Below are positions 7,621 through 23,568 of a DNA stretch of 23,756 nucleotides, in pieces. Origin of the DNA: a virus. The notes under the pieces were generated by a model. It made no database searches, was not told the origin of the DNA, and saw nothing but the letters and a program-made list of their open reading frames with translations. The position numbers and the translations under genes were made by a program. How positions within the stretch are numbered: position 1 is the first letter of the stretch; every line of letters begins with the position of its first letter. The stretch is taken from the IMG/VR virus record IMGVR_UViG_3300008448_005338, positions 1 to 23,756 of that record; one strand, 5' to 3'.

Positions 7621-7624
7621 TAGC

Positions 7625-8118: not shown

Positions 8119-8124
8119 AAATCT

Positions 8125-8153
8125 ATTATACTCTAGACTTCTATAATTGTAAA
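8125..8153 (-). promoter_or_regulatory. Leaderless promoter, TTTACA-17-TATAAT
   Basis: TTTACA (8153-8148), 17 bp and TATAAT (8130-8125) lie 6 bp before the ATG at 8118. The spacer contains AAGTCTAGAG, similar to the AAGTCGAG just before the -10 at 9032-9037. Confidence 0.7.
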
Positions 8154-8699
8154 GGGAGGCCTTACGCTCATATTAAACTTTGCTGCAGCTTCTAAAGCCA
8201 TTCTAACACGCTTGCGTGGAGTCTTTATTAATCCAGTTGAAAACAATGAACCAAGTGCTAGTTCCTGTCCAGCACCTTCAGCCATGTATTGAACATCTGC
8301 TTCTCCTATATGAAAGTCTGAATCCATTGTAAAAATTCTTCCAGCGCCTTGAACTGCTATTAAAAATATTCCGCCTTCATCGCCGTCTTCAGTTCCAGAT
8401 CCAAAGTTTCCGTAACCGTGTTCTTTAAATGAATCTTTAATCGACTCTACAAATTTTGTTCTTATAAATTTATCTAAGTTTCTGAATCCAGCAGTTGGTT
8501 TGTAAACTGGTGGTGTCCAGTCGTATTGCAAAATCTGTCCCATTCTAAAACTATCAACAAATCCTATTCCGAACTGACCTACTTTAAAAACTTTTGGGTC
8601 TGTGCGCTGAAAAATTAATCCAGACTTATCATCTGATGCAGCAGCATCGCCCCCCAAGAGGACTTTATTTTCATGGATTAGAGCTACTATGCAGGTCAT
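8133..8699 (-). CDS. Proteasome-beta/HslV-like Ntn hydrolase
   Basis: 188 residues starting MTCIVAL, so removal of the first Met would expose T2 as an N-terminal nucleophile, as in HslV and proteasome beta subunits. The spacing fits: LLGGDAAAS places D18 at the position of Asp17 of those enzymes, and PKVFKVG (K36) corresponds to the catalytic lysine region. A GIGFVDSFRMGQIL segment matches the 'GxxGSxxD' helix start of the fold. The protein is shorter than, or similar to, HslV and has no ATPase partner in the window. It may cleave itself or a peptide/amide substrate, or replace a host proteasome subunit. The start is leaderless behind TTGCAC-17-TATACT. Confidence 0.75.
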   Translation of the reverse strand: MTCIVALIHENKVLLGGDAAASDDKSGLIFQRTDPKVFKVGQFGIGFVDSFRMGQILQYDWTPPVYKPTAGFRNLDKFIRTKFVESIKDSFKEHGYGNFGSGTEDGDEGGIFLIAVQGAGRIFTMDSDFHIGEADVQYMAEGAGQELALGSLFSTGLIKTPRKRVRMALEAAAKFNMSVRPPFTIIEV

Positions 8700-8706
8700 A
8701 TAACCT

Positions 8707-8735
8707 AGTATACTATTTTAAAATTCGATGTGCAA
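8707..8735 (-). promoter_or_regulatory. Leaderless promoter of the Ntn hydrolase, TTGCAC-17-TATACT
   Basis: TTGCAC (8735-8730), 17 bp and TATACT (8712-8707) lie exactly 7 bp before the ATG at 8699. The -10 is within TAGTATACTA, a 10-bp palindrome. Confidence 0.7.
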
Positions 8736-8740
8736 GTAGG

Positions 8741-9022
8741 TTATTTAGAGGTATTTTTTTCAATTCTATCAATTGCATCCCTCAATGAGGTGCCATGATT
8801 ATTAAATAGTTCAGCTTTAATAATTCTTATTTCTTCGTCTAAATGTTCAAATCTAAGGTGTCCGAGTTCTAATCTTTCTACAACTCCTGGACGATCTTCC
8901 GTTCCATTCCAGTCTTGAATAAATTGAAACCAGGTCTTAAAAAGCTTAAAAAATTTATTGCCAAAGTATCCTAGGCCAGAAGCGGCGGCGGCGGCAAGCA
9001 CAATCCATTCAAGAATACTCAT
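8741..9022 (-). CDS. Membrane-anchored coiled-coil protein, holin-like
   Basis: 93 residues. A single N-terminal membrane segment (LEWIVLAAAAASGLGYF) is followed by an aromatic basic patch (KFFKLFKTWFQFI). An acidic, heptad-like helix occupies residues about 50-90 (VVERLELGHLRFEHLDEEIRIIKAEL, ...RDAIDRIEK). The layout resembles phage holin-like proteins of the 'membrane helix plus minor coil' kind found in actinophages, but the CHAP endolysin is 2 kb away. A -10 box (TATAAT) lies 9 bp before the ATG. Confidence 0.6.
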   Translation of the reverse strand: MSILEWIVLAAAAASGLGYFGNKFFKLFKTWFQFIQDWNGTEDRPGVVERLELGHLRFEHLDEEIRIIKAELFNNHGTSLRDAIDRIEKNTSK

Positions 9023-9031
9023 AATAAACTA

Positions 9032-9037
9032 ATTATA
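9032..9037 (-). promoter_or_regulatory. Likely -10 box (TATAAT) near-leaderless
   Basis: TATAAT ends 9 bp before the ATG at 9022 and is preceded by AAGTCGAG. The -35 is weak. No ribosome-binding site is seen for this gene. Confidence 0.5.
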
Positions 9038-9069
9038 CTCGACTTAAAATTATAATTTAAAATAGTTGA

Positions 9070-9306
9070 CTAAATTAAAAGCTCCGAAGCGGTAATTTCG
9101 TTACCAACATAACGTCTTTTTACAATGTATTCTTTTACGTGATCTGGACCAGAAGATCTTCCAGCCAATATAATTACCCAACGTGGCTCAAATTTAGAAG
9201 AAAAACATGTTTCACAAATAAGTAAATTAATTGGCAAAAGGACTGACTTCTTTACTTCTAGCTTGTTTTTAGACTTATTGCAGCTATAGCATAATATTTT
9301 TTCCAT
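9070..9306 (-). CDS. Zinc-finger-like protein (two CxxC pairs)
   Basis: 78 residues. CYSC at 6-9 and CETC at 31-34 enclose a basic segment (NKSKNKLEVKKSVLLPINLLI), and the remainder includes KFEPRWVIILAGRSSGPDHV and a final GNEITASELLI. The pattern is that of a small treble-clef zinc protein. The ATG shares its last base with the upstream TAA (TAATG). I believe related sequences occur in other phages but know no function. Confidence 0.65.
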   Translation of the reverse strand: MEKILCYSCNKSKNKLEVKKSVLLPINLLICETCFSSKFEPRWVIILAGRSSGPDHVKEYIVKRRYVGNEITASELLI

Positions 9307-9503
9307 TATTCTGATTCCTCAATATGTTTAAAGATTATCTCATCAATGATACTAAACTCTTCATTTTCCATTAATTCGCTGTACTCCGTGCCATTCTTAT
9401 TGTAGTTAACCGTTGATGCAAACGCACCAAGTTTTTCAACAGTACCGTGACATTGCTCTGAATGGATGTATACAACATGAACCACATCATAGTATTCTTT
9501 CAC
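9306..9503 (-). CDS. Unknown 65-residue protein, GTG start
   Basis: The sequence runs MKEYYDVVHVVYIHSEQCHG, then an acidic C-terminal half. A beta-strand-like opening (VVHVVYIH) is followed by helix. The GTG at 9503 is supported by GGAGG nine bases before it and overlaps the upstream gene by 17 bp. No motif recognised. Confidence 0.55.
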   Translation of the reverse strand: MKEYYDVVHVVYIHSEQCHGTVEKLGAFASTVNYNKNGTEYSELMENEEFSIIDEIIFKHIEESE

Positions 9504-9807
9504 TAGGCTTGCCCTCCAGCTCGCATCTTACTCCGTATGACTCAAGCAGTCGCTTGACCTTTCCTACATAATCAATAACCATTTCTTTTTTGGCTCCTTC
9601 GAATTGTAAAAAATTATCTTCATACAGTCTTAACGCTAAAAACTGTGGATACATTACTATGTCCATAAGAAGCATCGGTGGCTTCTTTACTTGATGGACT
9701 GCCTTCTTCATTTCTTCAGTATAAAAAACAGGTTTGTTTGGTTCGCCAGTCCATTCATTTACTCCGTATTTAAAATGCTCATTTATATCTTTTTTATTAA
9801 TAAACAT
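9487..9807 (-). CDS. Unknown 106-residue protein
   Basis: Soluble, without signal or membrane segment. An N-terminal polar region (KYGVNEWTGEPNKPVFYTEEMKKA) precedes a helical C-terminal region (MYPQFLALRLYEDNFLQFEGA, ...VIDYVGKVKRLLESYG). GAGG precedes the ATG at about 13 bases. It overlaps the WhiB stop by 11 bp, so it is in the same transcript and may be co-regulated with WhiB. No family recognised. Confidence 0.6.
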   Translation of the reverse strand: MFINKKDINEHFKYGVNEWTGEPNKPVFYTEEMKKAVHQVKKPPMLLMDIVMYPQFLALRLYEDNFLQFEGAKKEMVIDYVGKVKRLLESYGVRCELEGKPSERIL

Positions 9808-10108
9808 TTTTTTTCTTTAACCTCTTCCAGTCTTCTGCTGTTTTGTGTAAATTCTTGGATCTATCTATTGAACCTGAACTTAAATATACTCCGCCCCATA
9901 CTCCATATTCATTATTGTCTGTACCAGATTCATAACACATTTTCATTACTGGACAACTAAAACACATCTCGTCTATATTTCTTGCTATATTAGCATCAGA
10001 CTCGTATTTTTCATAAAATAAATTTGTATCCATACCTCTGCATATTGCAAGGTGGAACCAATCTAGATCATCTTCATCTATGCCTAAATCATTTAAAATG
10101 CTTGACAT
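9797..10108 (-). CDS. whiB: WhiB-like Fe-S transcription factor
   Basis: 103 residues from the ATG at 10108. WhiB proteins bind a [4Fe-4S] cluster and act with the host primary sigma factor as transcriptional regulators. The four cluster cysteines are present: C23 (LAIC), C49 and C52 (MCFSC) and C58 (VMKMC), giving C-Xn-C-x2-C-x5-C. The GVWGG turn follows at 69-73, then a basic C-terminus (DWKRLKKKNVY) of the DNA-binding type. The frame extends to a TTG at 10144, but that start has no ribosome-binding site. WhiB is confined to actinobacteria and their phages, which fixes the host group. Phage WhiB (for example TM4 WhiBTM4) can repress host whiB genes and block superinfection. Confidence 0.92.
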   Translation of the reverse strand: MSSILNDLGIDEDDLDWFHLAICRGMDTNLFYEKYESDANIARNIDEMCFSCPVMKMCYESGTDNNEYGVWGGVYLSSGSIDRSKNLHKTAEDWKRLKKKNVY

Positions 10109-10316
10109 GCTTTGTGGGCAACTTCCATATTCCGTTACTATCAACAGAAATTCTTTCTGCTGTCCCCCATGTGTTCTCTTTGAACATGCCCTTTACATTT
10201 GTAAATCCGTTAATATCTTTTTTCCAAATTACTAGATCGTAATTGTCCCAAAAAGGAGTGATATTCTTGGCCTTTTTAATAAAGACTTCGACACCTAGTT
10301 CTGTTAGATTTAACAT
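10089..10316 (-). CDS. Unknown 75-residue protein upstream of WhiB
   Basis: The product has a pattern of aromatic residues (PFWDNYDLVIWKKD, NTWGTAERISVDSNGIWKLP) suggesting a small all-beta, SH3-like fold. The start follows AAGGA closely and has its own strong promoter. Four codons upstream, ATG-TTT-AAG-GAA-TAA forms a tiny ORF whose stop overlaps this ATG. It overlaps the likely WhiB start by 20 bp. Function is unknown. Confidence 0.6.
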   Translation of the reverse strand: MLNLTELGVEVFIKKAKNITPFWDNYDLVIWKKDINGFTNVKGMFKENTWGTAERISVDSNGIWKLPTKHVKHFK

Positions 10317-10331
10317 TATTCCTTAAACATA

Positions 10332-10385
10332 AACCGCAGCATCCCACTGATATATATTATACAGTAAAATCTGCGGCTATGTCAA
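10332..10385 (-). promoter_or_regulatory. Strong promoter with inverted repeat flanking the -10
   Basis: TTGACA (10385-10380), 18 bp and TATAAT (10361-10356) drive the 75-residue protein and WhiB. An 8-bp inverted repeat (CTGCGGCT at 10371-10378, AACCGCAG at 10332-10339, one wobble) lies on either side of the -10. Confidence 0.6.
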
Positions 10386-10388
10386 TAC

Positions 10389-11075
10389 TTATTTAAGAAA
10401 AGTTCCATCCCATATGGACTTTTTAATTTTAGGCTCTTCTTCTTTATCTTCTACGTCATAAGCCTTTTCAACAGGTACACAATTTGGAACCATTCTGCCG
10501 TTCTTCTCTTTCATACCTCTTTGGGTATATCCTGACCAACAAGCCTTTTCCATGTTATTCCATTTATCTTCTTCTTCATTATCTGACTCATAATCCTCGT
10601 CCTCTTCATCTTCTTCATCTTCTGGCTTAGGATCTACAGATTTTACCAAAGTATTTTCTGGAATTTCAATAACTGTATCTATTGGATTAATTGCATCTTC
10701 TAACATATCTTTAATTTCTTCTATTACTTCTTGTACTTCTAATGACTTTTTCATATTTTTCTCCCTATTAACTATTTTACGAGACCAAGAAAATCCTGCA
10801 TCCCCACCCCAAGCTAGCCACATAATTTTTCCATTTGAAGGGTTTTCTGAGTTGTCCCAGTCTTTACCTTTTTTGTCTACTTCATGGCGAGAAAAATATG
10901 AATACATACGCTTTACAGTTGAAAGACTAAGAGTTTCACCTCGTGCTAATTGTCCTGCACGAGTCCAACCTACTGCAGTTCCTGCACCTTTAGCTTTTCC
11001 TTGCTCTTTCAACTTTATAGCACGACGTGCTGCTGACTGCATTCCAGATGTTGGCTTGTATCCTTCTTTTGCCAT
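10389..11075 (-). CDS. Two-motif phage protein with acidic linker
   Basis: 228 residues. Residues about 10-105 carry a motif seen in many phage genomes: SAARRAIKLKEQGKAKGAGTAVGW... followed by QLARGETLSLSTVKRMYSYFSRHE and IMWLAWGGDAGFSWSRK. Residues about 140-175 are very acidic (EDEEDEEDEDYESDNEEED). The C-terminal part holds a second recurring phage motif, CWSGYTQRGMKEKNGRMVPNCVPV (two cysteines). From memory both motifs recur in cyanophage and other phage proteins of unknown function. I cannot assign a role; the acidic middle suggests a DNA-mimic or scaffold-like region. The start has AAGGAGAAG inside the previous gene's 3' end. Confidence 0.7.
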   Translation of the reverse strand: MAKEGYKPTSGMQSAARRAIKLKEQGKAKGAGTAVGWTRAGQLARGETLSLSTVKRMYSYFSRHEVDKKGKDWDNSENPSNGKIMWLAWGGDAGFSWSRKIVNREKNMKKSLEVQEVIEEIKDMLEDAINPIDTVIEIPENTLVKSVDPKPEDEEDEEDEDYESDNEEEDKWNNMEKACWSGYTQRGMKEKNGRMVPNCVPVEKAYDVEDKEEEPKIKKSIWDGTFLK

Positions 11076-11076
11076 G

Positions 11077-11220
11077 CTACTTCTCCTTTACGCTAACAAC
11101 TTTAACATTTTTAACTTCATCATCTATACCAAATATATCGTTAGCATAATCTACAGCGTCTTCTGAAGAGAATGCCTCTACTTCTGCATCAATCTCTATC
11201 TTGACCTTGTATGTGTTCAT
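11077..11220 (-). CDS. Small acidic alpha/beta protein
   Basis: Predicted 47 residues: MNTYKVKIEIDAEVEAFSSE, then DAVDYANDIFGI and VKNVKVVSVKEK. The beta-alpha-beta pattern suggests a small ferredoxin-like or 'cyanophage-type' YKVxI protein. The ATG follows the CHAP gene's TAA directly, and the 3' end carries the ribosome-binding site of the next gene. Function is unknown. Confidence 0.6.
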   Translation of the reverse strand: MNTYKVKIEIDAEVEAFSSEDAVDYANDIFGIDDEVKNVKVVSVKEK

Positions 11221-11796
11221 TTACTTACCGCAAGTAGGGCACTTTGTATTAGATGTTTTTTCTGCTTTAGTCTTTGTTGTAGGTGCAGCACCCGCAGCCT
11301 TAAACTTTGGACGACCAAATCCTACAATTGAAATCATTACGCCTGCTTTGTTTTTCTTGAAAGCACGAAGTTGTTTGCAAGTCTCTCCGCCATTTCGTTG
11401 GCTTCCCTTTTTCTTTGAAGAAGTGTTGCCTTCAATACACCAAACAGTTCCATCTTCATTGTCTTTAACAACAATTCCGACGTGAGAAATCCTATCGACG
11501 CCATCTGAGGGGAAATCAAAATAGGCGATATCTCCTGGTTCTGGATCTGCGATGTCTCCATCAATCCATTGTCCAGCTTTCTTAAATGCTTGTGCACCAC
11601 TTGGTGTATAGACAGTATTAGGAATCTTTACTCCAGCTTCGTTTGCACACCAGTTAACAAAACTTCCGCACCATGGCTGGAAGTTAGCTTTCATAAAAGC
11701 ACCGTACTTAGTTTCGTTATCTTTAGGACCTTCAATAGTTCCTACTTCTGCTGTAGCAACTTCGATAAGACGTGCTGCTGTTCCTTGATCTGCCAT
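11221..11796 (-). CDS. CHAP-domain endolysin
   Basis: 191 residues. The CHAP (cysteine, histidine-dependent amidohydrolase/peptidase) fold cleaves peptidoglycan peptide cross-links or the amide bond to muramic acid. The catalytic cysteine C43 (QPWCGSFVNWC), H105 (RISHVGIVV) and E122/N124 (CIEGNTS) are in place. The C-terminal 40 residues are Ala/Lys/Thr-rich and end in KCPTCGK, a truncated zinc-ribbon or a wall-binding tail. There is no signal peptide, so it needs a holin. It lies directly after three membrane-protein genes and a lipoprotein gene (12835-11796), which form the lysis cassette. Confidence 0.88.
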   Translation of the reverse strand: MADQGTAARLIEVATAEVGTIEGPKDNETKYGAFMKANFQPWCGSFVNWCANEAGVKIPNTVYTPSGAQAFKKAGQWIDGDIADPEPGDIAYFDFPSDGVDRISHVGIVVKDNEDGTVWCIEGNTSSKKKGSQRNGGETCKQLRAFKKNKAGVMISIVGFGRPKFKAAGAAPTTKTKAEKTSNTKCPTCGK

Positions 11797-12017
11797 TACT
11801 TCACCTTATTCCCAAATTTTGCCCAGACTCTTTCATGAAGAAAGTATCCCAAAGCTTCCCATAGGATATATCCTAGAGCTCCTAGTGTTGCATATTCATA
11901 CTCGACTTCACCAGTCATGATATATGTAACAATTGCAATAATGCCAGCAACACCAATTAAATGAAATGTTTCCCAGCTTAATGTTTTAGCAAGTGTCTTT
12001 TTAGTTGAGTCTGCCAT
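11796..12017 (-). CDS. DUF2061-like membrane protein
   Basis: 73 residues. The family signature is visible: KTLSWETFHLIG near the N-terminus, a membrane segment (VAGIIAIVTYIMTG), a second segment (YATLGALGYILWEALGYFL) and the C-terminal HERVWAKFG. These are small two-helix inner-membrane proteins of unknown function. In this position, directly before the endolysin gene with a 1-bp overlap, it is a holin or antiholin candidate (inference). Confidence 0.75.
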   Translation of the reverse strand: MADSTKKTLAKTLSWETFHLIGVAGIIAIVTYIMTGEVEYEYATLGALGYILWEALGYFLHERVWAKFGNKVK

Positions 12018-12019
12018 AA

Positions 12020-12427
12020 TTACTTATCCCAATCTTCATCAACTGGTTGTACTTCTGGCATTGCTCCATCTGGCTTAGCTGCTAGACGTGCTGCAGTTGC
12101 ATCAATTTCTGCTTCAAGCTTTTTGTCTGCCTGTGTATTCTTTGCATCCATTTCTTTGTTAGCAAGCTGTGCTGACATAATATCCTTAGCACCAGATTGA
12201 CCAATCAATAGACCAGCGAGTGTTCCTGTAATAAATGTTGCAACGCTACCAAGTACGTTAAAGAACATCTTATCGTTCTCTGACTGTCCGCCAATTGGTT
12301 GTGTTACGAAAATAAGAGCATAAAGAATTCCCAATGTTGTGCACAAAAGAATTGTGCCTAATGTAATTCCTAAAATAAATTTTAATCTAGCGTCTAAATC
12401 TGACGCAGTAAGTCTTTCTCTAGCCAT
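12020..12427 (-). CDS. Two-helix membrane protein, lysis-region candidate
   Basis: 135 residues from the ATG at 12427 (the frame is open to a TTG at 12469 but that part overlaps the lipoprotein gene). The N-terminal segment MARERLTASDLDARL is followed by two membrane helices (LKFILGITLGTILLCTTLGILYAL and VLGSVATFITGTLAGLLIG). The charged helical tail contains AQLANKEMDAKNTQADKKLEAEIDATAARLA. The topology suggests a holin or a protein acting with one; the large tail is unusual for a simple holin. Confidence 0.7.
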   Translation of the reverse strand: MARERLTASDLDARLKFILGITLGTILLCTTLGILYALIFVTQPIGGQSENDKMFFNVLGSVATFITGTLAGLLIGQSGAKDIMSAQLANKEMDAKNTQADKKLEAEIDATAARLAAKPDGAMPEVQPVDEDWDK

Positions 12428-12638
12428 TTGAAGTACCTGTTTCGGTTGTTGTAATTTGATCTTTACCAATTACATCTTTAGTGCATGTGCCTGTCGCTTC
12501 ACAGATTGGGGGATTGCATTCCGCCTTCTCCCAATTAGCAGGATCTTGACATGGGTATCTATAGAAACCCTGATACCCGCAACTAGTTAATGATAGCATT
12601 AATAGCCCTGACAAAGCAATAGCAGTTATTCTTTTCAT
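12420..12638 (-). CDS. Small phage lipoprotein
   Basis: 72 residues. The signal is a clear lipobox: MKRITAIALSGLLMLSLTSCG, with the modified cysteine at C20. The mature part has GFYRYPCQDPANWEKAEC, NPPICEATGTC and a polar tail. A very similar YRYPCQDPxNW...CNPPIC sequence occurs, from memory, in T4-like marine cyanophage small lipoproteins of unknown role. Possible roles are o-spanin-like or superinfection-blocking lipoproteins; neither is shown. A -10 box lies 6 bp before the ATG. Confidence 0.75.
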   Translation of the reverse strand: MKRITAIALSGLLMLSLTSCGYQGFYRYPCQDPANWEKAECNPPICEATGTCTKDVIGKDQITTTETGTSNG

Positions 12639-12644
12639 ACCACT

Positions 12645-12650
12645 ATTATA
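12645..12650 (-). promoter_or_regulatory. -10 box of a leaderless lipoprotein gene
   Basis: TATAAT ends 6 bp before the ATG at 12638. The -35 region is weak. No ribosome-binding site of normal spacing is present. Confidence 0.5.
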
Positions 12651-12652
12651 CC

Positions 12653-12835
12653 CTACTCTGAGTCCTTATTTCTAGCAGGACTTGTTAATATCCAGAGTGC
12701 TGTAGTGGCTATAATTCCATAGCCCACTATAGTTTTTGCACTTCCGTCCAAAACGACCCAAGCAATGAACATACCAAGAAGGGTCCAGGCCTGATCAATT
12801 AGATCCTTCATTATATTTTTAAGTATTCTTACCAT
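12653..12835 (-). CDS. Small two-helix membrane protein, holin candidate
   Basis: 60 residues. A basic N-terminus (MVRILKNIMKDLIDQ) leads into two membrane segments (AWTLLGMFIAWVVLDG and TIVGYGIIATTALWILTS) joined by a short turn with K34. It ends in a charged PARNKDSE tail. This is the classic size and topology of a class II holin. It overlaps the end of the 837-residue gene by 7 bp and heads the lysis cassette. Confidence 0.7.
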   Translation of the reverse strand: MVRILKNIMKDLIDQAWTLLGMFIAWVVLDGSAKTIVGYGIIATTALWILTSPARNKDSE

Positions 12836-15342
12836 CTTCTACCTCCTCGTGAACCTGGTGAATTGGATCCTGAGCCTCCACCAGAACTTCCTCCGCCTCC
12901 TGTGCCACCTCCTGTGGCTCCTCCTGTGGCAACTGCTGCTGCGTTAATTGCGGCACCTGCTGCAACTACTGTAGCAACAACCATGTCTGTTGCCTCTTCT
13001 CTTTCTTCGTCTGACATATCTGCACCTATGCTTCCAAATGCAGCCAATGCTGCTGCTGGATTTGTAAATAATTCTTCTACCAATGCTCCTGGATTCTGAA
13101 GTAATTCTACTTGTGCAGCAACTGCTGCAGTAATTACAACTGCATTTCCATTTTCATCTGTTCTAACATCTACTGGTGTTGCAGGTGGAAGATCTTTGTA
13201 TTCAATTCCAGATGCTTTAATATCTGCAGAACTTACTGCTTCTCCTGGTTTTAAATCTGCAACAAGATTTTCAACAACTGCGTCTTTTTGTTCTTCAGTT
13301 AATTCTTTACCTTCTTTAGCATCTTCTATTGCTTTATCAAGGGCTTCTTTCTCTGCTTGCTTAGCCTCTGCCTCCGCCTTTAATTTATCTGCCTCTGCTT
13401 GCTTAGCCTCTGCCTCTGCTTTAGCGTTTGCCTCTTCTTGTGCTTTAGCTTCCGCTTCTGCTTTTGCTTGCTCTTCTGCTTGTCTTGCAGCTTCTGCTTC
13501 TGCTTCTAATCTTTCTGCTTCCGCTTTTGCATTTGCCTCTGCTTGCTCTTTAGCTTCTTGTTCTGCTTTTGCTGCAGCCTCTTCTGCTGCTACACGATCT
13601 GCCTCTGCTTTAGCTGCTGCTTCCTCAGCAGCAACTCTATCTGCTTCTGCTTTTGCTGCAGCTTCTGCAGCTGCTTTAGCTTCTGCTTCTGCTTTTGCCG
13701 CTGCTTCAGCGGCTGCCTTTGCTTGTGCCTCTGCTTGAGCCGCTGCAGCTTCCGCTGCCGCAGCTTCTTGTGCTGCTTGTTGTGCCGCTGCTTCCGCAGC
13801 TGCTTGAGCCGCTGCTTGTACTGCTGCTCTCTGCTCTGCATAATAATTTGTAGTAACCTGTGCAGCATTTGTCATTGCTGTTACTGCTTCATTTACTTTT
13901 GTAGTTGCTGTATTTGCAAGGGTGTCTGCAGCCTGAACTGTCGCTGTCGCAGTTTCTGTAAGTTGAGTTAGAGTTGCAACTTCTACTGCTTTTATTTCTG
14001 TTTTATCTACCACTACTGCTTCAGCAACTGTTTTTTGTGCTTGCAATGTATTTAGTACTGCGGTGTCTGCTGCAAGTACGGATACTGCTGCATCCTTTTC
14101 TTGCACTAAAGTAGTTAGCTCTGCAGTTTCTGTAGCAACTACAGTGGTCTGAGCTTGTATTTGAGAAGTTAATTCTGAATTAGTTACATTTGTCATTGGT
14201 TGTACTGCTTGACCAGCAGCTTCTCTAACACCAATGCGAGGTCCGTTATACAAATTAGTTGTGTTTCCAGCAACCGTGCCAACGCCTGTCCATTCTCCAG
14301 TTGCAGGATTTACAGTCATGGTCCAGTTAACATTTGTAATTGGGCTGGCTGGATTACCAAATAAATGTAAGTCCCAGTCAACAGCAAGTGTTGTTTCTGT
14401 AGTCTTTACTGTAATTCCAGCGTTAGGTCCAGCACTTTGAAAATCAGAACCAAATACTGAAATGCTTGGTCCATTAGGAAAATCCCACCAATTATAATCT
14501 CCAGTGCCAAATGTTATAGTTGCTTTAGATGTTACATAAATTTGACTTGCAGATCCTTGCCCTTCGTATACAGTATTTCCCATTTTAATATCAAATGGCG
14601 TTTCAATTTTAGTTGCACCGTCATACATTTCAGGTAAAGTTGTAGTGGTTGTAGTTGGGTTTTCAGGAGCAACTGGTGCTACATATCCAGCAGTTGTATA
14701 GGTTTTAGAATCTGAAGGAGTATTTTGAAGAGCGGTTAGCTCTGAAGTTTCGGTATTCACTACAGTGGTCTGTGCGTTAACTGCAGCTTGAGCCGTTGCT
14801 ACATTTGTAGCATCTGTTGCGACTACAGCAGTTTGTGACTCTACTTGCTGTGTTACTGTATTTAATGCTGTCTGAGCATTGTTTAAATTTGTTGTTGCTT
14901 CTGCAACTACCGTCGTTTGTGACTCAACAGCTGCCTGTGCAGTTGTAGCAACAGAAACCGCTGTCTCAGCAGACTGGATCGCTGTTGTGGCTTCTTGAAC
15001 CTTTACTGTAGCTTCTGCTACTGCAGTAGCAATTGGCTCTTGTGTGGTAGCAATTGTAGCTGCTTGCGTTGGTGTTGTATTAGGAACATTTGCTTGAATT
15101 GTAGTAGTTATAGCAGTTGCTTGTGTTTCTGCTGCTGCCTGCAATGTCTCTGCTGCCGCTTCAACCTTATCTGCAACTGTCTCAACTGTAATATGGGTGG
15201 TTGCTGTAGCGGTATCTGAAGAAGGATTAGCTGGAGTTACTTGAACTGTTGGCTCATCAGCATTTGCAATGCTGGGCCCAAAAAGGAAAAGCCAGCCGAT
15301 AATAAAAAGGCTGGTTAAAAAATACTGTAACTTTCTAGTCAA
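12829..15342 (-). CDS. Large secreted coiled-coil surface protein
   Basis: 837 residues. A Sec signal peptide (basic TRK, hydrophobic FLTSLFIIGWLFLFG, cleavage at ANA-28) is followed by: an Ala/Thr/Val helical stretch (50-205); a beta-rich domain (about 238-375, with GDYNWWDFPNGPS and WTMTVNPATGEWTG); a second helical stretch (390-500); a long Ala/Glu/Lys coil (505-680) with near-tandem EADRVAAEEAAAKA units; a globular part (700-800); and a Gly/Ser tail ending GSRGGRRW. The coil resembles TolA-type periplasmic rods. The start is a TTG with AGGAG 8 bases upstream. Being exported before lysis, it may line the cell wall or the virion (inference). Confidence 0.8.
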   Translation of the reverse strand: MTRKLQYFLTSLFIIGWLFLFGPSIANADEPTVQVTPANPSSDTATATTHITVETVADKVEAAAETLQAAAETQATAITTTIQANVPNTTPTQAATIATTQEPIATAVAEATVKVQEATTAIQSAETAVSVATTAQAAVESQTTVVAEATTNLNNAQTALNTVTQQVESQTAVVATDATNVATAQAAVNAQTTVVNTETSELTALQNTPSDSKTYTTAGYVAPVAPENPTTTTTTLPEMYDGATKIETPFDIKMGNTVYEGQGSASQIYVTSKATITFGTGDYNWWDFPNGPSISVFGSDFQSAGPNAGITVKTTETTLAVDWDLHLFGNPASPITNVNWTMTVNPATGEWTGVGTVAGNTTNLYNGPRIGVREAAGQAVQPMTNVTNSELTSQIQAQTTVVATETAELTTLVQEKDAAVSVLAADTAVLNTLQAQKTVAEAVVVDKTEIKAVEVATLTQLTETATATVQAADTLANTATTKVNEAVTAMTNAAQVTTNYYAEQRAAVQAAAQAAAEAAAQQAAQEAAAAEAAAAQAEAQAKAAAEAAAKAEAEAKAAAEAAAKAEADRVAAEEAAAKAEADRVAAEEAAAKAEQEAKEQAEANAKAEAERLEAEAEAARQAEEQAKAEAEAKAQEEANAKAEAEAKQAEADKLKAEAEAKQAEKEALDKAIEDAKEGKELTEEQKDAVVENLVADLKPGEAVSSADIKASGIEYKDLPPATPVDVRTDENGNAVVITAAVAAQVELLQNPGALVEELFTNPAAALAAFGSIGADMSDEEREEATDMVVATVVAAGAAINAAAVATGGATGGGTGGGGSSGGGSGSNSPGSRGGRRW
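13363..13830 (-). repeat. Imperfect tandem repeats encoding the Ala/Glu/Lys coil
   Basis: Short in-frame repeats of the GCTTCTGC type encode units such as AEADRVAAEEAAAK (two copies, residues 566-579 and 580-593) and AEAEAKQAEADKLK/AEAEAKQAEKEA. Such arrays are prone to slippage, so length may vary between isolates. Confidence 0.7.
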
Positions 15343-15350
15343 CTAGGTAT

Positions 15351-15394
15351 CTCCTAAGTAATGCAATATCTTTGCTTACTTAGATATTATAGCA
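15351..15394 (-). promoter_or_regulatory. Promoter and hairpin at the ribosome-binding site
   Basis: An extended -10 promoter (TGC-TATAAT, TATAAT at 15391-15386) precedes a hairpin whose arms are CTAAGTAA (15354-15361) and TTACTTAG (15376-15383), with an inner GCAA/TTGC. The Shine-Dalgarno AGGAG (15355-15351) overlaps the hairpin. A transcript from this promoter would start near 15379 and lack half of the 5' arm. Confidence 0.6.
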
Positions 15395-15409
15395 GAATGT
15401 TAATTTAAA

Positions 15410-15595
15410 TTACTTAACATTATCTGTTTTATAAAAGCCATTACCTTTAAACTGTATACCAAAAGAACCGTAATGTCTTTGTAACCTTTTACCACATTCA
15501 TTACATAGATAGTTAGGCTCAACAGAAGTTATAGATCTTTCTTTTGCAACAATGTTTTCTGGAGAACACTCACATTTGTATTCGTATATAGGCAT
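15410..15595 (-). CDS. FmdB-like zinc-ribbon protein
   Basis: 61 residues. The family's typical start MPIYEYKC is present, with cysteines at about 8, 10, 31 and 34 (CNECGKR) forming the zinc ribbon, and the conserved FKGNGFYKTD near the C-terminus. FmdB-like proteins are found widely in bacteria and in phages; the name comes from a putative regulator of amide uptake, but the function is poorly defined. The frame is open to a GTG at 15607, but the ATG at 15595 is preceded by AAGGTGG and matches the family start. Confidence 0.85.
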   Translation of the reverse strand: MPIYEYKCECSPENIVAKERSITSVEPNYLCNECGKRLQRHYGSFGIQFKGNGFYKTDNVK

Positions 15596-15596
15596 T

Positions 15597-16187
15597 CTAC
15601 TGACCACCTTCTCTGTATCTAAATGCTATAGCTGCCCTTGAAACATGAGGATTTAATCCGTGAAATACTCCTCTAGGCACAACAATTACATCTCCTGGTT
15701 CTACCAGCACTTTCTGTATTGGCTCTATCCCTCTGCCCTGATCCTCTTTGTTTAAAAATACTTCCCAAATTGTTGATCCTTGACATTGCCAAAACACGCT
15801 ATCTACATCGTCCACATGAGTTGGCACCATCATTCCATTTCCAACTATATTTAAAAAAGTTGCACCGCCATTAGTTTTTTCGCTATAGACTTCATTAAAA
15901 AATTCAACTACATCTCTGCATTCTGGGAAAAATGTAAACTTGTCGCTTGATGTTGCATCCCTGACATGAAAATAATAACCAGTTTTAGCAACTGTTCCAT
16001 TATGTATTGTGTGCCACTCATCAGACTCTTCTTGAGGACCTTCTGGCGTGGTATTAAAATGATAATCTAAATGATTAATAAATTGATCCCATTTTGGCAC
16101 AACAGGAAACATTGATTTTAACTGCAGGATCTTCTTATCGGATCTAGAGCTCTCAATCATTTCAATTATTTCATGCTTGGTCATCAT
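15597..16187 (-). CDS. Cupin/JmjC-type Fe(II) oxygenase-like protein
   Basis: 196 residues. The C-terminal half has a double-stranded beta-helix signature: GNGMMVPTHVDDVDSVFWQCQG holds an HxD pair (H124, D126), VEPGDVIVVPRGVFHGL holds the distal H176, and the final strand AAIAFRYR follows. This fits a 2-oxoglutarate/Fe(II) JmjC-like or cupin-8 domain. No 2-oxoglutarate-binding residue can be assigned with certainty. It overlaps the flavin monooxygenase gene by 17 bp, so the two are translationally linked and may act on one pathway. Substrate unknown. Confidence 0.75.
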   Translation of the reverse strand: MMTKHEIIEMIESSRSDKKILQLKSMFPVVPKWDQFINHLDYHFNTTPEGPQEESDEWHTIHNGTVAKTGYYFHVRDATSSDKFTFFPECRDVVEFFNEVYSEKTNGGATFLNIVGNGMMVPTHVDDVDSVFWQCQGSTIWEVFLNKEDQGRGIEPIQKVLVEPGDVIVVPRGVFHGLNPHVSRAAIAFRYREGGQ

Positions 16188-16974
16188 TTATTTTTTTTAC
16201 CATTCTATGTATTCTATAGTATTCATCGTCTATTTGAACTCTACTTACTAGGATGTCAGTAACCCCCTGACCTCTCATAGCATCTATATACCCTATTATC
16301 TCATTTTCTGTACCAAAAAGGCAAGAGGCTTTTCCCATATTATCTGGCAATTTATTATGTACCGCTTCAGCTTCTTCTTTTGTGTCACGAATTATTATAG
16401 GCATCGCCAAAAGAACCCGCTTTGTTTTTATTAAACTAGATAGCCCATTTTTATAGCTAGAGTACATACAAAGATGGGCGTCTGCATATTTTTCAGAATT
16501 TGATATTGTTCCATTAGATGTTCCGCTTACAACTATCTCGGGTTTATTCTTTAAAATAGGTAGGCTAGTAAATTTTTCAAGCCACTCTGTTGTATACTTA
16601 ACCCTGTCTTCATGCGTTTCTAATAAATTTGAAATAGCAACAACATCTGATCTACTGGTTTCATCTGCGTGTAGGTCACCAGCAGCAACATTTAAAATTA
16701 ATCTATCTGGGGATATTTCATTAAACGCTTCAACCATCATTGCACAATATTCTGGGCTTATCGCATATGTTCTCATTGCAATCATATATTTTAGTTTATG
16801 CTCTGGATTTATTATATTGGCTATTTTAATCCAATAGTCTGGTATCTTAGAGTGGTATACACTTAACACAGAATAGTATCCAGCAAAATCTAGTACATTA
16901 GATAAAATTTCGAGTTCTTTAGGAGTGCTTCCATCGAATCTCTGCATCCAATGAATGTTAATTTTTTTACCCAC
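16171..16974 (-). CDS. Luciferase-like flavin monooxygenase
   Basis: 267 residues, shorter than the 340-380 of typical bacterial-luciferase-like enzymes. The start is INIHWMQRFDG. The family pattern of a TIM-barrel strand followed by 'P...A.....l..iS.dRl.lNv..G' is visible as MRTYAISPEYCAMMVEAFNEISPDRLILNVAAGD (about 67-100). VSGTSNGTISNSEKYADAHL and the C-terminal EIIGYIDAMRGQGVTDILVSRV match later barrel segments. Such enzymes use reduced FMN or F420. The start is a GTG 5 bp after the nuclease stop. A phage-encoded member is unusual. Its reaction cannot be read from the sequence. Confidence 0.8.
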   Translation of the reverse strand: MGKKINIHWMQRFDGSTPKELEILSNVLDFAGYYSVLSVYHSKIPDYWIKIANIINPEHKLKYMIAMRTYAISPEYCAMMVEAFNEISPDRLILNVAAGDLHADETSRSDVVAISNLLETHEDRVKYTTEWLEKFTSLPILKNKPEIVVSGTSNGTISNSEKYADAHLCMYSSYKNGLSSLIKTKRVLLAMPIIIRDTKEEAEAVHNKLPDNMGKASCLFGTENEIIGYIDAMRGQGVTDILVSRVQIDDEYYRIHRMVKKINDDQA

Positions 16975-17536: not shown

Positions 17537-17959
17537 TTATTTGATCTTGATGGTCTTTGGCTTTTTTTCTTCTGGTAGAATGCGTACAATATCAATCTTA
17601 AGCATTCCGTCCTTTAGTTCCGCTGCCTTTACTTCCATATATTCACCAAGAGCCCACTCACGAGTAAATTTACGGGCAGCAATTCCACGATGGATAAACT
17701 TCGAATCGTTATCCTCTGTGTTTAATTCTCCCTTTACAGTGAGCTTGCCGTCTGCTGTTGATACATCAATATCTGTTTTAGCAAATCCAGCGACTGCTAG
17801 TTCGACAACAAAGTTGTCTTCGTCTACCTTGATTACGTTATATGGTGGATAGTTAGTCGCACTAGATACTGTTTGAGCGTGGCTCCATGTATCTAAAGCT
17901 CTATCAAATCCAATAAAAAAAGGATCCTTAAAAAGATCCCATGTATATGTTGTTACCAT
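17537..17959 (-). CDS. hsp20: Small heat-shock protein, Hsp20/alpha-crystallin
   Basis: 140 residues. The alpha-crystallin domain covers about 38-128: PPYNVIKVDEDNFVVELAVAGF, the DGKLTVKGE strand, ARKFTREWALGEYMEV and the signature AAELKDGMLKIDI. The C-terminal IxI motif (KTIKIK) for oligomer binding is present, so the protein should form oligomers and hold unfolded proteins without ATP. Hsp20 genes are common in aquatic T4-like phages. AAGGAGGAATAAA precedes the ATG. Confidence 0.92.
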   Translation of the reverse strand: MVTTYTWDLFKDPFFIGFDRALDTWSHAQTVSSATNYPPYNVIKVDEDNFVVELAVAGFAKTDIDVSTADGKLTVKGELNTEDNDSKFIHRGIAARKFTREWALGEYMEVKAAELKDGMLKIDIVRILPEEKKPKTIKIK

Positions 17960-18460: not shown

Positions 18461-18712
18461 CTATTGTATCGTTCCGTCTTCATTTTTGTCAATACTTGTT
18501 TCAACTAATTGCTGGACATATTCTGAAAAATGTTTACGGATATTTCCCATCGGTCTTTTACCAGATGCAGCCCAAATTCTTTTATATTCAACTACATTAG
18601 AAAATGTTGTTGGACATAAGACGGTTCCATTATACTCTTTTAATACTGTTGGTAGAGGCACATGCTTACCACAGCATTTACATTCTTTAGCTCTTTCTTG
18701 ATATATACTCAT
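18461..18712 (-). CDS. Small Cys-rich protein after terL
   Basis: 83 residues. An N-terminal CKCCGKHVP at 11-19 and a CP near residue 33 give four cysteines and a histidine for a zinc site. The rest is basic and helical (EYKRIWAASGKRPMGNIRKHFSEYVQQLVETS). It could bind nucleic acid. The ATG overlaps the TerL TGA by 4 bp. HNH-type nucleases often lie next to terminase genes, but I see no HNH residues. Function is unknown. Confidence 0.6.
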   Translation of the reverse strand: MSIYQERAKECKCCGKHVPLPTVLKEYNGTVLCPTTFSNVVEYKRIWAASGKRPMGNIRKHFSEYVQQLVETSIDKNEDGTIQ

Positions 18713-20499
18713 ACTATTTCCATTCCATCTAACATATCTGATAAGTTCTTGGGCATTCTTGGTGGCCTTATCATGTTCATAACTATTTCATCTTCTTCTT
18801 TTTCTCTGTCCCACTTTAAAGAGCTGTAGGTATGTATATCTATCTCTTCATTGTTTTGTGGCCTACTTCTGCTAATTGCGTTATACACAGAACCGCACAC
18901 CGCATCCGCTAAATCTTTAGATCCTTTTCTTGGGTGATCAACCCTATCTCTCATAATTTTTAATTGCAGTAACTCATCAATAAGTAATTTAATTGCTGGT
19001 CCATTTAATCTGTCTTCAGCTACAACCATTGCCATATCATCGTAATGTTTTTTTGCAACAGATAGGTTTTCTGTATTAATGCCATACTGTTTTAATTGTT
19101 GCATCATATCGTGTGAGTTCCATCGGTCAAATGTACACACACGAATCTTAAATCCTTTTGTCCTAAGGGATAATATATAATCTTTAACCTCGGTAAAGTC
19201 TACAGACTTATCTGGGGTAGGCGTCCAGTACCTAACTGCATCAACTTCTACAATTGGAGCTGGTTGGGAATATGTATCAGTCACTTTTACATTTACCCAT
19301 TTTTGTACATGTGCCATTGCAACGGCACAATGGTCATGCTTTTGGGCCAAGTCAACGTGCAAGAAATATTCTTTATCTGGATCTGGCGCAAACCAATTTT
19401 CAAATCTTCCAAATTCGTCTACGGCCAAAGCTCTATTGCTAAATGCGGTTTCAATTTTTTCTCTAGATTTAAAAAATGCATCGATGGCTTCAGAAGGCAT
19501 ACATGCAAATCTTCCTAGTGCGTCTGGTGCATTTTTATAAAACGCTACCTTAAAATCATCTATACTTCTTGTGGGATTAATCTCCCAGGTTGGTCTTTTA
19601 AGAGCATACATTCTTGGATACTTATAGGATAATATATGGTCTTCTTCCCACTCGATATCAAATTCATTACCATCTGTTCCGTCTGGTAAAGAGTCATCAA
19701 GCTTAAAGTGGTGGGATCTAACTACCACTTCTTTTTCTGCAACAACGTCCTCATATCTCTGCTGAATATAGTCATTCTTATATCTTGGAAATGAAAGCAG
19801 AATAACCTTTCCGTAGTCTGGAAAACGTGAATCGACTGATGCACGATACATCTCGTATATTGCACTACCAGTTTTAGCTTGCTCGTGTCCAGTTGTATTT
19901 TCTGTAGCAAAGCCTGAAATTTCATCAAGGATGATTACGATAACGTTGTATCCTTCCCAGGCCTCACGCTCTGAGTGACCTGAGTGTACTGTTATATTCT
20001 TATTAAACTTTATCTCAGAAGCCTTTTCAGTATACTTTCCAGTAAACCATGGAGACTTATCTATTCGTGTTCTAAATCCCTTAAAGAAAACGTTGTTTGC
20101 CTGCTGTGCGTTAATAGCAATGTTAATGATATCAATAGAATCTCCAGGAGGCTTTCCATAATACTGAGCTGGATCCTTAAGACACAATAGTAAATATACT
20201 ATATAGGCTACTGATATGGTTGAGCAGTAGTCTTTTCCAGAACCTTTTCCAAGTTGAGCAACAACTTCATTAGCCGTTTGCTTAAACATTCTTTTTCCTT
20301 CATCTTCCCCAAATAATTTAATCAGAGTAGACTCTTTATAGACCTGCGAAGATTTTTCAATTAATATATATTGATACTCAGATAAAGGTGGAAGTCCTAG
20401 GTAATCTGGGCTTGTTACAAATGTGCGTAGGTCTACTGGACGCTCATCAAACTCTTCTCCGTCTAGTATGTCGATTAAATCATTAAAGTTAAGATCCAT
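18709..20499 (-). CDS. terL: Terminase large subunit
   Basis: 596 residues. TerL packages phage DNA into the prohead and cuts it. The N-terminal ATPase has a deviant Walker A QLGKGSGKD (residues 82-90, K89), Walker B VIVIILDE (185-193, D192 and E193) and the coupling segment ILLSFPRYKND. The C-terminal RNase-H-like nuclease shows D383 (FLHVDLAQKHDH), D458 (CTFDRWNS) and D529/D532 (KDLADAV). The type is closest to the T4/T7-like 'Terminase_6'-style arrangement, but I cannot name the subfamily. It begins one base after the fusion gene's stop. It fixes the window as tailed phage. Confidence 0.93.
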   Translation of the reverse strand: MDLNFNDLIDILDGEEFDERPVDLRTFVTSPDYLGLPPLSEYQYILIEKSSQVYKESTLIKLFGEDEGKRMFKQTANEVVAQLGKGSGKDYCSTISVAYIVYLLLCLKDPAQYYGKPPGDSIDIINIAINAQQANNVFFKGFRTRIDKSPWFTGKYTEKASEIKFNKNITVHSGHSEREAWEGYNVIVIILDEISGFATENTTGHEQAKTGSAIYEMYRASVDSRFPDYGKVILLSFPRYKNDYIQQRYEDVVAEKEVVVRSHHFKLDDSLPDGTDGNEFDIEWEEDHILSYKYPRMYALKRPTWEINPTRSIDDFKVAFYKNAPDALGRFACMPSEAIDAFFKSREKIETAFSNRALAVDEFGRFENWFAPDPDKEYFLHVDLAQKHDHCAVAMAHVQKWVNVKVTDTYSQPAPIVEVDAVRYWTPTPDKSVDFTEVKDYILSLRTKGFKIRVCTFDRWNSHDMMQQLKQYGINTENLSVAKKHYDDMAMVVAEDRLNGPAIKLLIDELLQLKIMRDRVDHPRKGSKDLADAVCGSVYNAISRSRPQNNEEIDIHTYSSLKWDREKEEDEIVMNMIRPPRMPKNLSDMLDGMEIV

Positions 20500-20500
20500 T

Positions 20501-23038
20501 TTAAAGATTAAGCATCCTTTGCAGGGTGCGATGAACTTGTGGAACTTCCATAATAGGTGGAATGTCTATTAATCTTATTTTTATGTTTTGAGAAAACTTT
20601 TGAGACTCTGATGTAATAATATTTGAATAGTGATTATACATTTGATCAATAAACTCTGGCTGACGTGGTTCAGCTAAAGCTAACACAGTTATATTTACAA
20701 TACCGTCATCTAGTGGGTCTAGATGATATAGATTGACCATGCTTGATCCCACATAACAGACTATGTCTGATGCAGATCTACAAATATTTATTTGTTCTTC
20801 TGGAGTAAAGTCTTCCATGCATACCGACTCAAACCCTCTTTCACGAAAATAATTTTCAATACCTATTTCATTAGGATGAACTCTTTCGTAATTTTTTCTA
20901 GATATGTATATCTTCTTTTTTATCTTTTTTCTTTTTTCTAAAAATGAATTTATTTCATTTCTTGTATAGTTAATTATATCTAGCTCGTGGGGTCCATTGC
21001 TTCTATGTAAAAGCCATGCAGGGAAATAAACCATCATGTTTGAAACACTTGGGTTTAGCCATTGGTCACAGTATTCCTTTTTTGCATTATGGACAACTAG
21101 ATCTTTTCTTTCATAAAAAACATAAGACTTTGCAAATGTTAAATTTTTTTCCATTAAATCTTTAAGTGTAACGCATTCAAAATCTATATCGAGAGCCTCT
21201 AGCCAAAACGCTAGGGATGAGGCATCTTCTTCTCTTCCGTATAAATTTTTAGCATTTTTACTATTTAGTCCAACAAAAATTCCATTTCTATCAACTTGTG
21301 TGTCTGCTAAAATAATTAATTTAAAGTCAGGGTCTATTCTTTTCAAAAAGAATAACTTTGGAAGAAGCTCTAAATAGATATGAAAAAATCTTGATGTGTA
21401 GGCTGTTACATAAACTGACTTTTCTTTTTCGCCTTTAACGTAATTCTTGTCTATTGAAGTTATTATTGGATGAAGCATAAGCTGATGGTCATGCGGCCCA
21501 GCACTTACAACCTTTTGCAAACTTTCTTCTTTAAAGTCATCATACTTAGAGTCAAAAACTTCGTACTTGGCATTTAAATAAGATACGCAAATTTCTGAAT
21601 TAGTAATTTCATATATAGACTCTATATAGTCTTCATCATTTTTTGGCACGTTTTCAGAATTATTAAAAAAATACCTGCTTTTATCTTTGGGAGTAAACTT
21701 AGGATTTTGTCCCTGATCCAAATATCTTTCTAAATCTTCTGGAGTTCCTAGCCCACGAAACTCTTTTGCTCGCAAAGTAGTTATGACTTTCTGATCTTCT
21801 ATTGCTTCGTTGTAAACTGGAGCAATATAAAATTCATTGTTAGTTCTTATTCCTTTATCAATCATTTGTTGAGCATACTTTACAAAATCTGATCCCGATT
21901 TCCAATAATAAAGTCCACAAGTTGCTTCTTGACCTACAACAACTTTTTCGTATACGTGTCTTACAAAAGGATCCTTTAGCTCTACATAAGACCACTTATC
22001 TTCGTTAGATTGAAATGTCATAACAGCACCATCTACTCCAGATTCAACCCACAAGTTCATGTCATCTTTTGCATTCCATCTTATGTATTGGTCTGAATTG
22101 ACAATTATTAAATGCGAATCGTTGTCAATAATATCTTTTGCTAAAAGAGCTGAGCAGGTTGCCCCTTCTAGTTTCTCTTTTTGCACTACAATCTCAAAGT
22201 CGTTACAAAATTCACCAATTTTTTTATATAAATCGTAATCTTTTACGTGCTCTTCTTTTGCAACAAAAATAAAGTGAGCGTCCAGATCAATAGAATCATG
22301 GACTATGTTAATCATTGTCTTTCCATCAATTTCAATTAAAGGTTTAGGTGTTGCATATCCTGCTTCAACAAACCTGGAACCTTCTCCAGCCATTGGAATA
22401 AGAACATTTATATTTTTTCTTGTTGGATTCAAATGACTTAATACTAAATCCATATTAAGATCACTTCTGTTTTTAATGCTTACCAATTTGGCTCCACTTG
22501 AAACAGCTGCAGATTTACCAACAAGGCTATCCTCAAAAATAACTGTATGCCATTTAGTAGTTTGCATATTTTCCATACACATCAAATATATTTCTGGATT
22601 TGGTTTTGGCGAAACAACATCTTCATTGGCCAGATAAAGATTTACATGGTCTATTAAGCCTAAAGATGTTAGGCAGGCCTCAACAGTTTCTTTAATACAG
22701 TTACTTGCTACAGCAACATCTACGTTATACTCTCTAATAACTTTAAATATTTCAATTAATTCTTCATCTTTAGGTAGATTTTCAAAAAATTTAATTGACT
22801 TTTCCTGCTTTGATTTCCATATCTTCTCGTGATACTCTTCTGGCAGATTACGAGTTTCAGTCAATATTTTTAATTTTTGTTTTGTTGTAAGACCTTCGAA
22901 AATTCCATACTGATCATCTTCTGATATCACATATTTTTCGTCTACTTCTTTTAATGCAATATTTAATGAATCAAAATGTATTTTTTTGCTATCTACAAGT
23001 ACCCCGTCTAAGTCAAATATAAAAAGTCTATTGTTCAT
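20501..23038 (-). CDS. HAD phosphatase / nucleotidyltransferase / GT61-like fusion
   Basis: 845 residues with three domains. Residues 1-205 are a HAD hydrolase: D9 and D11 (FIFDLDGVLVDS), S112 (VAVASN), K145 (SPKPNPEIY), D170 (IFEDSLVG). Residues 210-445 are a sugar-1-phosphate nucleotidyltransferase: GEGSRF (218-223), ATPKPLIEIDG (K232), VNSDQYI (D316). Residues about 535-845 resemble a GT61-type glycosyltransferase: YISRKNYERVHPNE, GFESVCMEDFTPEEQI and ASDIVCYVGSSMVNL. The order suggests dephosphorylation, activation as NDP-sugar and transfer in one chain. It lies between terS (4-bp ATGA overlap) and terL (1-base gap), so it is translated with the packaging genes. The sugar and acceptor are unknown; a virion protein, the host surface or DNA are possible acceptors (inference). 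Confidence 0.85.
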   Translation of the reverse strand: MNNRLFIFDLDGVLVDSKKIHFDSLNIALKEVDEKYVISEDDQYGIFEGLTTKQKLKILTETRNLPEEYHEKIWKSKQEKSIKFFENLPKDEELIEIFKVIREYNVDVAVASNCIKETVEACLTSLGLIDHVNLYLANEDVVSPKPNPEIYLMCMENMQTTKWHTVIFEDSLVGKSAAVSSGAKLVSIKNRSDLNMDLVLSHLNPTRKNINVLIPMAGEGSRFVEAGYATPKPLIEIDGKTMINIVHDSIDLDAHFIFVAKEEHVKDYDLYKKIGEFCNDFEIVVQKEKLEGATCSALLAKDIIDNDSHLIIVNSDQYIRWNAKDDMNLWVESGVDGAVMTFQSNEDKWSYVELKDPFVRHVYEKVVVGQEATCGLYYWKSGSDFVKYAQQMIDKGIRTNNEFYIAPVYNEAIEDQKVITTLRAKEFRGLGTPEDLERYLDQGQNPKFTPKDKSRYFFNNSENVPKNDEDYIESIYEITNSEICVSYLNAKYEVFDSKYDDFKEESLQKVVSAGPHDHQLMLHPIITSIDKNYVKGEKEKSVYVTAYTSRFFHIYLELLPKLFFLKRIDPDFKLIILADTQVDRNGIFVGLNSKNAKNLYGREEDASSLAFWLEALDIDFECVTLKDLMEKNLTFAKSYVFYERKDLVVHNAKKEYCDQWLNPSVSNMMVYFPAWLLHRSNGPHELDIINYTRNEINSFLEKRKKIKKKIYISRKNYERVHPNEIGIENYFRERGFESVCMEDFTPEEQINICRSASDIVCYVGSSMVNLYHLDPLDDGIVNITVLALAEPRQPEFIDQMYNHYSNIITSESQKFSQNIKIRLIDIPPIMEVPQVHRTLQRMLNL

Positions 23039-23568
23039 GATATTTCCGTTTCTATAAATACTGGCTCGACAATGCCAGTAATCTGAGATAATCTTTTTGC
23101 AACATCCATTTTACATTTAGGACACGAAGCAGTTACTTCTTTTAGTATTTTTATTAGGATGTCTTGTTTACGTTCAGTTTCAGCAATTTGATCTGCTAAC
23201 TCTGCATTGTCTAATAGCCCAACTTCTTGAAGCATTCCAATTCTTTTGCCCTCAATATCTGCAATTAGCTTTAGTGCTCCTGATTTAACACTCAGTTGTC
23301 CTGCTTGATCTGCATCCTCAACAGTTTTCCATGCTTCTTTAATAAGCATTGCGTAGTGTTGGTCTGCTCCAGAGATAGCTTCTTTAGCCCTTTCACGGGC
23401 CGCTGTGTCATTGTGGACTACGCTCTTCCACTCATCTATTAGCTCGACTACTTCGGATCTTTTAAATCCTGTAACGGTTGCAATTTGAGTTGGGTTGTTT
23501 CCCTTTAGCAGTTCTGAGACTACTATGTTCATTCGGTCAAAGTGGTCGGCTAATTCAATTTCGGACAT
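23035..23568 (-). CDS. terS: Probable terminase small subunit
   Basis: 177 residues. The N-terminal part (MNIVVSELLKGNNPTQIATVTGFKRSEVVELIDEWK) has a helix-turn-helix, as in TerS DNA-recognition domains. The middle (residues about 55-140) is helical and would form the oligomer core, and CPKC near 150 is an additional cysteine pair. No direct family signature is visible; the call rests on the helix-turn-helix, size and position upstream of terL. It has a leaderless promoter with an operator-like palindrome. Confidence 0.7.
   Translation of the reverse strand: MSEIELADHFDRMNIVVSELLKGNNPTQIATVTGFKRSEVVELIDEWKSVVHNDTAARERAKEAISGADQHYAMLIKEAWKTVEDADQAGQLSVKSGALKLIADIEGKRIGMLQEVGLLDNAELADQIAETERKQDILIKILKEVTASCPKCKMDVAKRLSQITGIVEPVFIETEIS

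Follow-up and report, generated by a model that had tools for sequence, protein, structure and literature searches.

The window (the whole stretch of DNA analysed, 23,756 bases) is the record of an uncultured lake-water virus of bacteria. Between its terminase genes lies a single minus-strand ORF of 845 codons that starts with ATG and has no internal stop (Table 1). The start of the ORF and the end of terS share 4 nt (23035-23038), and a single base (20500) separates the stop codon from the terL ATG, both as described in an initial annotation of this DNA, which also named the two neighbours correctly. The 177-aa neighbour belongs to phrog_9507, a family annotated as the small terminase subunit in several Streptomyces phages, and TerS and TerL are 53% and ~62% identical, respectively, to Streptomyces phage proteins. 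Pfam places three domains in the protein, each above its curated cut-off: HAD_2 (1.1e-22, residues 7-186), NTP_transferase (1.7e-7, residues 216-436) and Glyco_transf_61 (1.8e-11, residues 551-772; 44.9 bits against a gathering cut-off of 27), the last of which also scores above cut-off in the fused homologues. Copies that are 100% identical over the 845 amino acids occur in two further viral contigs from different metagenomes, and the fusion is therefore not an artefact of assembly or frameshift. Each of the three domains is under purifying selection, with dN/dS of ~0.1-0.35 per domain where this was computable, although dS approaches saturation in the more divergent pairs. The gene is a real and functional-looking fusion, for which we infer catalytic activity.

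Table 1. Positions of the fusion gene, its domains and the flanking terminase genes in the window.
Feature	Position	Strand	Basis
HAD-NT-GT61 fusion protein, 845 aa	20501..23038	-	ORF, Pfam, identical copies, purifying selection
HAD phosphatase domain, residues 1-205, beta-phosphoglucomutase-like	22424..23038	-	Pfam HAD_2 1.1e-22, TM_1254, invariant residues
Sugar-phosphate nucleotidyltransferase (NT) domain, residues 206-445	21704..22423	-	Pfam, 4evw, invariant residues
Disordered linker between NT and GT61, residues 443-468	21635..21712	-	pLDDT <50 in full-length model
GT61 glycosyltransferase domain, ~residues 470-845	20504..21631	-	Pfam 1.8e-11, fold model, H553/R714/R719
terS, 177 aa, left edge of cargo slot	23035..23568	-	phrog_9507 1.3e-56
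terL, 596 aa, right edge of cargo slot	18709..20499	-	Terminase PHROGs; ~62% identity to Streptomyces phage terminases

Folds and active sites of the three domains

The full-length AlphaFold2 model had a mean pLDDT of 82.9, with low confidence in the linker, and a pTM of 0.54, so that the relative placement of the domains is unreliable. By fold, the HAD domain matches beta-phosphoglucomutase (bPGM)-like enzymes, and its best solved relative is the TM_1254 sugar phosphatase (2.3e-15). Motifs I-IV are present and D9, D11, S112, K145, E169 and D170 are invariant across 10 distinct fused homologues. The domain scores above cut-off for TIGR01509 (HAD-IA) and below every equivalog cut-off, reaching 66.1 bits against the 189.4 required for bPGM. 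In the cap, GLTTKQ takes the place of the GVSRED-like sequence of the mutase, whose Arg binds phosphate. The cap sequence and the sub-threshold equivalog scores together suggest that this domain is likelier to be a phosphatase than a mutase.

The closest match of the NT domain, both by fold (E 1.7e-17) and by sequence (7.2e-12), is the Vibrio nucleoside-diphosphate-sugar pyrophosphorylase 4evw. The glycines and arginine of the GxGxR loop (G218, G220, R222), the Lys (K232) and the metal-binding Asp (D316) are invariant in the same 10 homologues. CTP:inositol-1-phosphate cytidylyltransferases are also among the fold matches.

Folded alone, the GT domain reached a pTM of 0.84. All 16 PDB chains matching this model at E <0.001 are POMGNT2, a GT61 enzyme with a GT-B type fold (Z 13.1, the next fold at Z 8.0), and in a Foldseek comparison with viral models two phage proteins named glycosyltransferase 61 ranked best. 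Sequence comparison of this part with solved structures gave POMGNT2 only, at E 0.98, and it is the structure model that settles the GT61 fold. The initial annotation had read three domains in the protein, with a GT61-like enzyme at the C-terminus and the key residues of the first two domains in place. Pfam and the three fold comparisons bear this out, as do the invariant residues, and the different fold that it had allowed for in the last domain was not found.

A 2026 structure paper on EOGT proposed a catalytic His (EOGT H248, POMGNT2 H166) and an N-R-R donor triad for GT61 enzymes (PMC13123520). The Asn of this triad was described for animal and plant GT61; Proteobacterial members keep only R-R, and prokaryotic GT61 enzymes are not defined by this residue (PMC13123520). 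In the fusion, H553 corresponds to the proposed catalytic His and is invariant in 19/19 aligned rows, while R714 and R719 are invariant in the 10 fused proteins and spaced as in EOGT, these equivalences being drawn from sequence pattern rather than residue-level superposition. The protein has in common with POMGNT2, EOGT and the plant xylosyltransferases the GT-B type fold and, by sequence pattern, the proposed catalytic His and the two triad Arg. It differs from known GT61 enzymes at position 550, the site of the triad Asn, which is Arg or Lys in all 10 fused proteins; in the usual HGA motif, which is VGSS or LGSS in the fused set; and in being joined to HAD and NT domains. With a donor pocket this atypical, neither donor nor activity can be transferred from known GT61 enzymes. 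The fusion shows neither a transmembrane segment nor a lipid-carrier enzyme, and the GT61 domain looks soluble.

One reading of the atypical pocket and of the cytidylyltransferase matches is that the substrate of the NT domain is a polyol phosphate or comparable small alcohol rather than a sugar, and that the group moved by the last domain is a phospho-alditol or a relative of it. A ~145-aa ORF that often adjoins HAD-NT genes and looks glycerophosphodiesterase-like by eye would fit such chemistry, but this label has no Pfam support, and the best NT match by both sequence and fold is annotated as a nucleoside-diphosphate-sugar pyrophosphorylase. We regard the polyol route as improbable. The small ORF recurs beside HAD-NT genes in many contigs (L095, L098, L100-L132 and others) and in L098 is itself fused to a GT61 domain.

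Distribution of the fusion and the terS-terL junction

Related loci were collected from viral contigs, in three scans that used the enzyme as query and one that used TerL, and were compared as gene maps. The three-domain ORF was found in ten viruses distinct at 97% identity and lies between terS and terL in every one of them, the conserved neighbourhood for which the initial annotation had proposed a search; in one fused group a second GT61 gene follows the fusion, before terL. In a quick tree the HAD-NT parts of the ten fused proteins form one clade against 35 two-domain sequences (SH-aLRT 95.6, one change), which indicates that the fusion arose once. Two-domain HAD-NT ORFs are far commoner than the fusion and occur in aquatic phages, including isolated cyanophages. 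The proteins of cyanophages S-CAM9, S-PRM1 and B23, and of other aquatic phages, share with the fusion its first two domains, HAD before NT, the cyanophage proteins being 44-45% identical to it over residues 3-441. However, the cyanophage genes are located in glycan gene islands rather than between terS and terL, and their products lack GT61 in the chain. In two further contigs (L257, L258) terL is followed directly by separate, unfused genes for GT61 and HAD-NT.

No three-domain match was present in cellular genomes, either in one scan of genome contigs or among 396 genomes of one phylum, and the two HAD-NT hits in Bacteroidota bins (L140, L141) were two-domain. A common host-derived fusion unconnected with packaging, the counter-explanation offered in the initial annotation, was rejected as to its origin, none having been seen in the cellular genomes searched; as to packaging, it agrees with the junction data below. 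L140, assigned to a Chitinophagaceae bin, carries its HAD-NT gene with homologues of phage Hsp20, SNase and GT61 genes (4700-15699) and may be a mis-binned phage contig. The GT61 part gave no tblastn match at E 0.001 among 50,697 phage records. A full-text search of the open literature, which is weak evidence, returned no description of such a fusion.

Among 65 distinct terS-terL junctions, 43 are empty (gap <=30 nt). A mini-gene of ~51-60 codons occupies ten, a 2OG-Fe(II) oxygenase-like gene three and the fusion nine, a frequency that is overstated as the set was partly recruited by the enzyme query. Enzyme-bearing viruses fall in three separate parts of the terL tree, and a close relative whose TerL is 99% identical to that of this virus (L005) lacks the gene. 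The DNA of the two viruses is 98-99% identical immediately upstream of terS and 75% identical where terS ends; on the other side identity climbs from 87% at the terL start to 99% inside terL. A dip of this kind, deepening toward the junction on either side, is what cassette exchange through flanking recombination would be expected to leave, although locally faster evolution could contribute. The GC content of the enzyme gene is 32.0%, compared with 39.7% for terS and 37.2% for terL. We conclude that in these uncultured freshwater phages, a widespread group, the terS-terL junction serves as a slot for exchangeable cargo.

These data bear on the suggestion, made from gene position in the initial annotation, that the enzyme serves packaging. 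The protein could act on the packaging machinery, with TerS or TerL, for instance, as the substrate of glycosylation, and its location in 10/10 fused viruses and likely co-transcription with the terminase genes would suit such a role; however, the same terminase occurs without the enzyme in most close relatives, L005 included, and the slot also houses the oxygenase or mini-genes. Of the roles considered here this one is the least likely. A functional link to packaging was rejected on the empty junctions, the unrelated nature of the other cargo, the patchy occurrence on the terL tree and the cassette-like loss of identity against L005. The initial annotation had domains, fold and conserved location right but overreached in drawing function from the packaging context. 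BillNye and other Stanwilliamsviridae are related phages with the order RecB-RuvC-glycosyltransferase-terS-terL, but in BillNye terS and terL are adjacent with no enzyme between them. The slot is a warning against inferring function from a place in the packaging operon.

We note that the mini-gene found in the slot of L009, L013, L021, L022, L023, L034, L036, L078 and L079 has Cys pairs (CEHVY...CPKCG). A second exchangeable cassette lies upstream of terS: this virus (L001, 550-1901) has a GT32-type glycosyltransferase and an FkbM methyltransferase just upstream of terS, and L005 (5789-7104) a GT25-type glycosyltransferase with Methyltransf_24.

Genome context and the probable acceptor

Two relatives of ~110 kb (G001 and G002, near-complete, with completeness unproven) reveal the wider genome plan. 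The replication genes stand between terL and the genes for protease, major capsid and tail, with the capsid and tail genes tens of kb away from terL; BillNye is arranged in the same way. With the capsid and tail genes at this distance, adjacency to terL is no pointer to a virion or packaging target. Freshwater actinobacteria are the suggested hosts, given the kinship with Streptomyces phages and the WhiB homologue encoded by G002; actinophages have been reported from lakes (PMC10202952).

We propose that the fusion is a glycosylation module carried as optional cargo in the exchanged terS-terL slot of freshwater phages related to the Stanwilliamsviridae, and that its acceptor is most probably a virion protein, a reading to which we give even odds (a probability of about 0.5). 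The HAD domain would take phosphate off a phosphorylated sugar or, less likely, isomerise it; the NT domain would couple the resulting sugar phosphate to a nucleotide; and the GT61 domain would move the activated sugar to its acceptor, for which a hydroxyl group on a phage virion protein is the likeliest candidate. The terminase genes would provide no more than a permissive, probably co-transcribed site.

The target is suggested by gene content in relatives and by known enzymes. One relative (L058) encodes a GT60-type GlcNAc-transferase downstream of terL, and in G001 and G002 a protein with ~13% proline adjoins clusters of 2OG-Fe(II) oxygenase-like genes. Proteins are the substrates of animal GT61 enzymes (PMC13123520), and glycosylation of capsid and tail proteins is described for mycobacteriophages (PMC12363180, citing Freeman et al. 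2023). Of these, Che8, Corndog and Myrna, actinobacterial phages with their own glycosyltransferases and glycosylated virions, are the model for the proposed target (PMC12363180). This hydroxylase-glycosyltransferase context is found in the relatives and just partly in the window. A stronger version of the proposal, in which one polypeptide would lead from sugar phosphate through nucleotide sugar to glycosylated virion protein independently of host nucleotide sugars, a donor pocket of a new R/K-R-R type accepting a dedicated unusual nucleotide sugar that the HAD and NT domains would themselves produce, is possible but doubtful.

The oxygenase-like clusters comprise six ORFs in G001 (43881-49437) and a similar group in G002 (80704-87030), and with the proline-rich protein they lie ahead of the portal-side genes. 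Hydroxylation of virion proteins is a possible role for them; collagen-like GXY runs of at least six repeats were absent from both genomes. Regions downstream of terL in L056 (8994-15036), L058 (8739-14969) and L087 (11618-16446) contain a carbamoyltransferase, 2OG-like ORFs and paralogous proteins of 320-360 aa without a Pfam match.

Another possibility is that, in the infected cell, the module makes a sugar and adds it to glycans of the host surface, which would hide receptors from superinfecting phages or otherwise alter the surface. In cyanophages the HAD-NT genes are grouped with epimerases and several glycosyltransferases, a long way from the terminase, in islands that might just as well act on host-surface glycans, and the cassettes upstream of terS (GT32 with FkbM here, GT25 with Methyltransf_24 in L005) resemble polysaccharide tailoring. 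However, the fusion lacks any visible transmembrane segment or lipid-carrier enzyme, and its soluble-looking GT61 domain has solved relatives that modify proteins. Modification of the host surface is a serious but minority prospect.

Glycosylation of phage DNA ahead of packaging, also raised in the initial annotation, is disfavoured. Phages that glycosylate their DNA do carry a nucleotidyltransferase with a glycosyltransferase, and the gene adjoins the terminase genes, near replication genes. In Shewanella phage Thanatos, TH1_060 and TH1_063 pair sugar activation with a glycosyltransferase as the fusion does, but Thanatos acts on cytosine and has a dCMP-hydroxymethylase-type gene (PMC12838424). 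The enzyme families that provide the usual base handle were not found in ten records, possibly incomplete, that include the window and the two ~110-kb contigs: there was no thymidylate synthase/dCMP hydroxymethylase (PF00303) or C5-methyltransferase (PF00145), and no Tet_JBP (PF12851) above cut-off, deazaguanine and ThyX routes lying outside this search. We therefore consider a DNA target very unlikely. Virion glycosylation remains the preferred reading; on that reading too, the initial annotation had named the likeliest target, which the evidence set out above favours and to which the packaging position is little guide.

Phage glycosylation genes are known, and the three-domain form in one protein appears to be a new variation on them. 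If active, it would combine sugar activation and transfer in one protein, would provide a compact test case for phage independence from host nucleotide sugars, and could be of use as a glycoengineering tool.

Several other minus-strand genes in the window are worth recording. A luciferase-like monooxygenase gene followed by one for a JmjC/cupin protein (15597-16974) forms an ordered pair that is kept in relatives. Cpn10-like, thioredoxin, subtilase-family and Hsp20 genes are found at 2161-2493, 6142-6447, 6649-7584 and 17537-17959, respectively. An Ala/Glu-rich protein of 837 aa (12829-15342), with no Pfam or PHROG match, has a signal-like start and a Gly-Ser-rich end.
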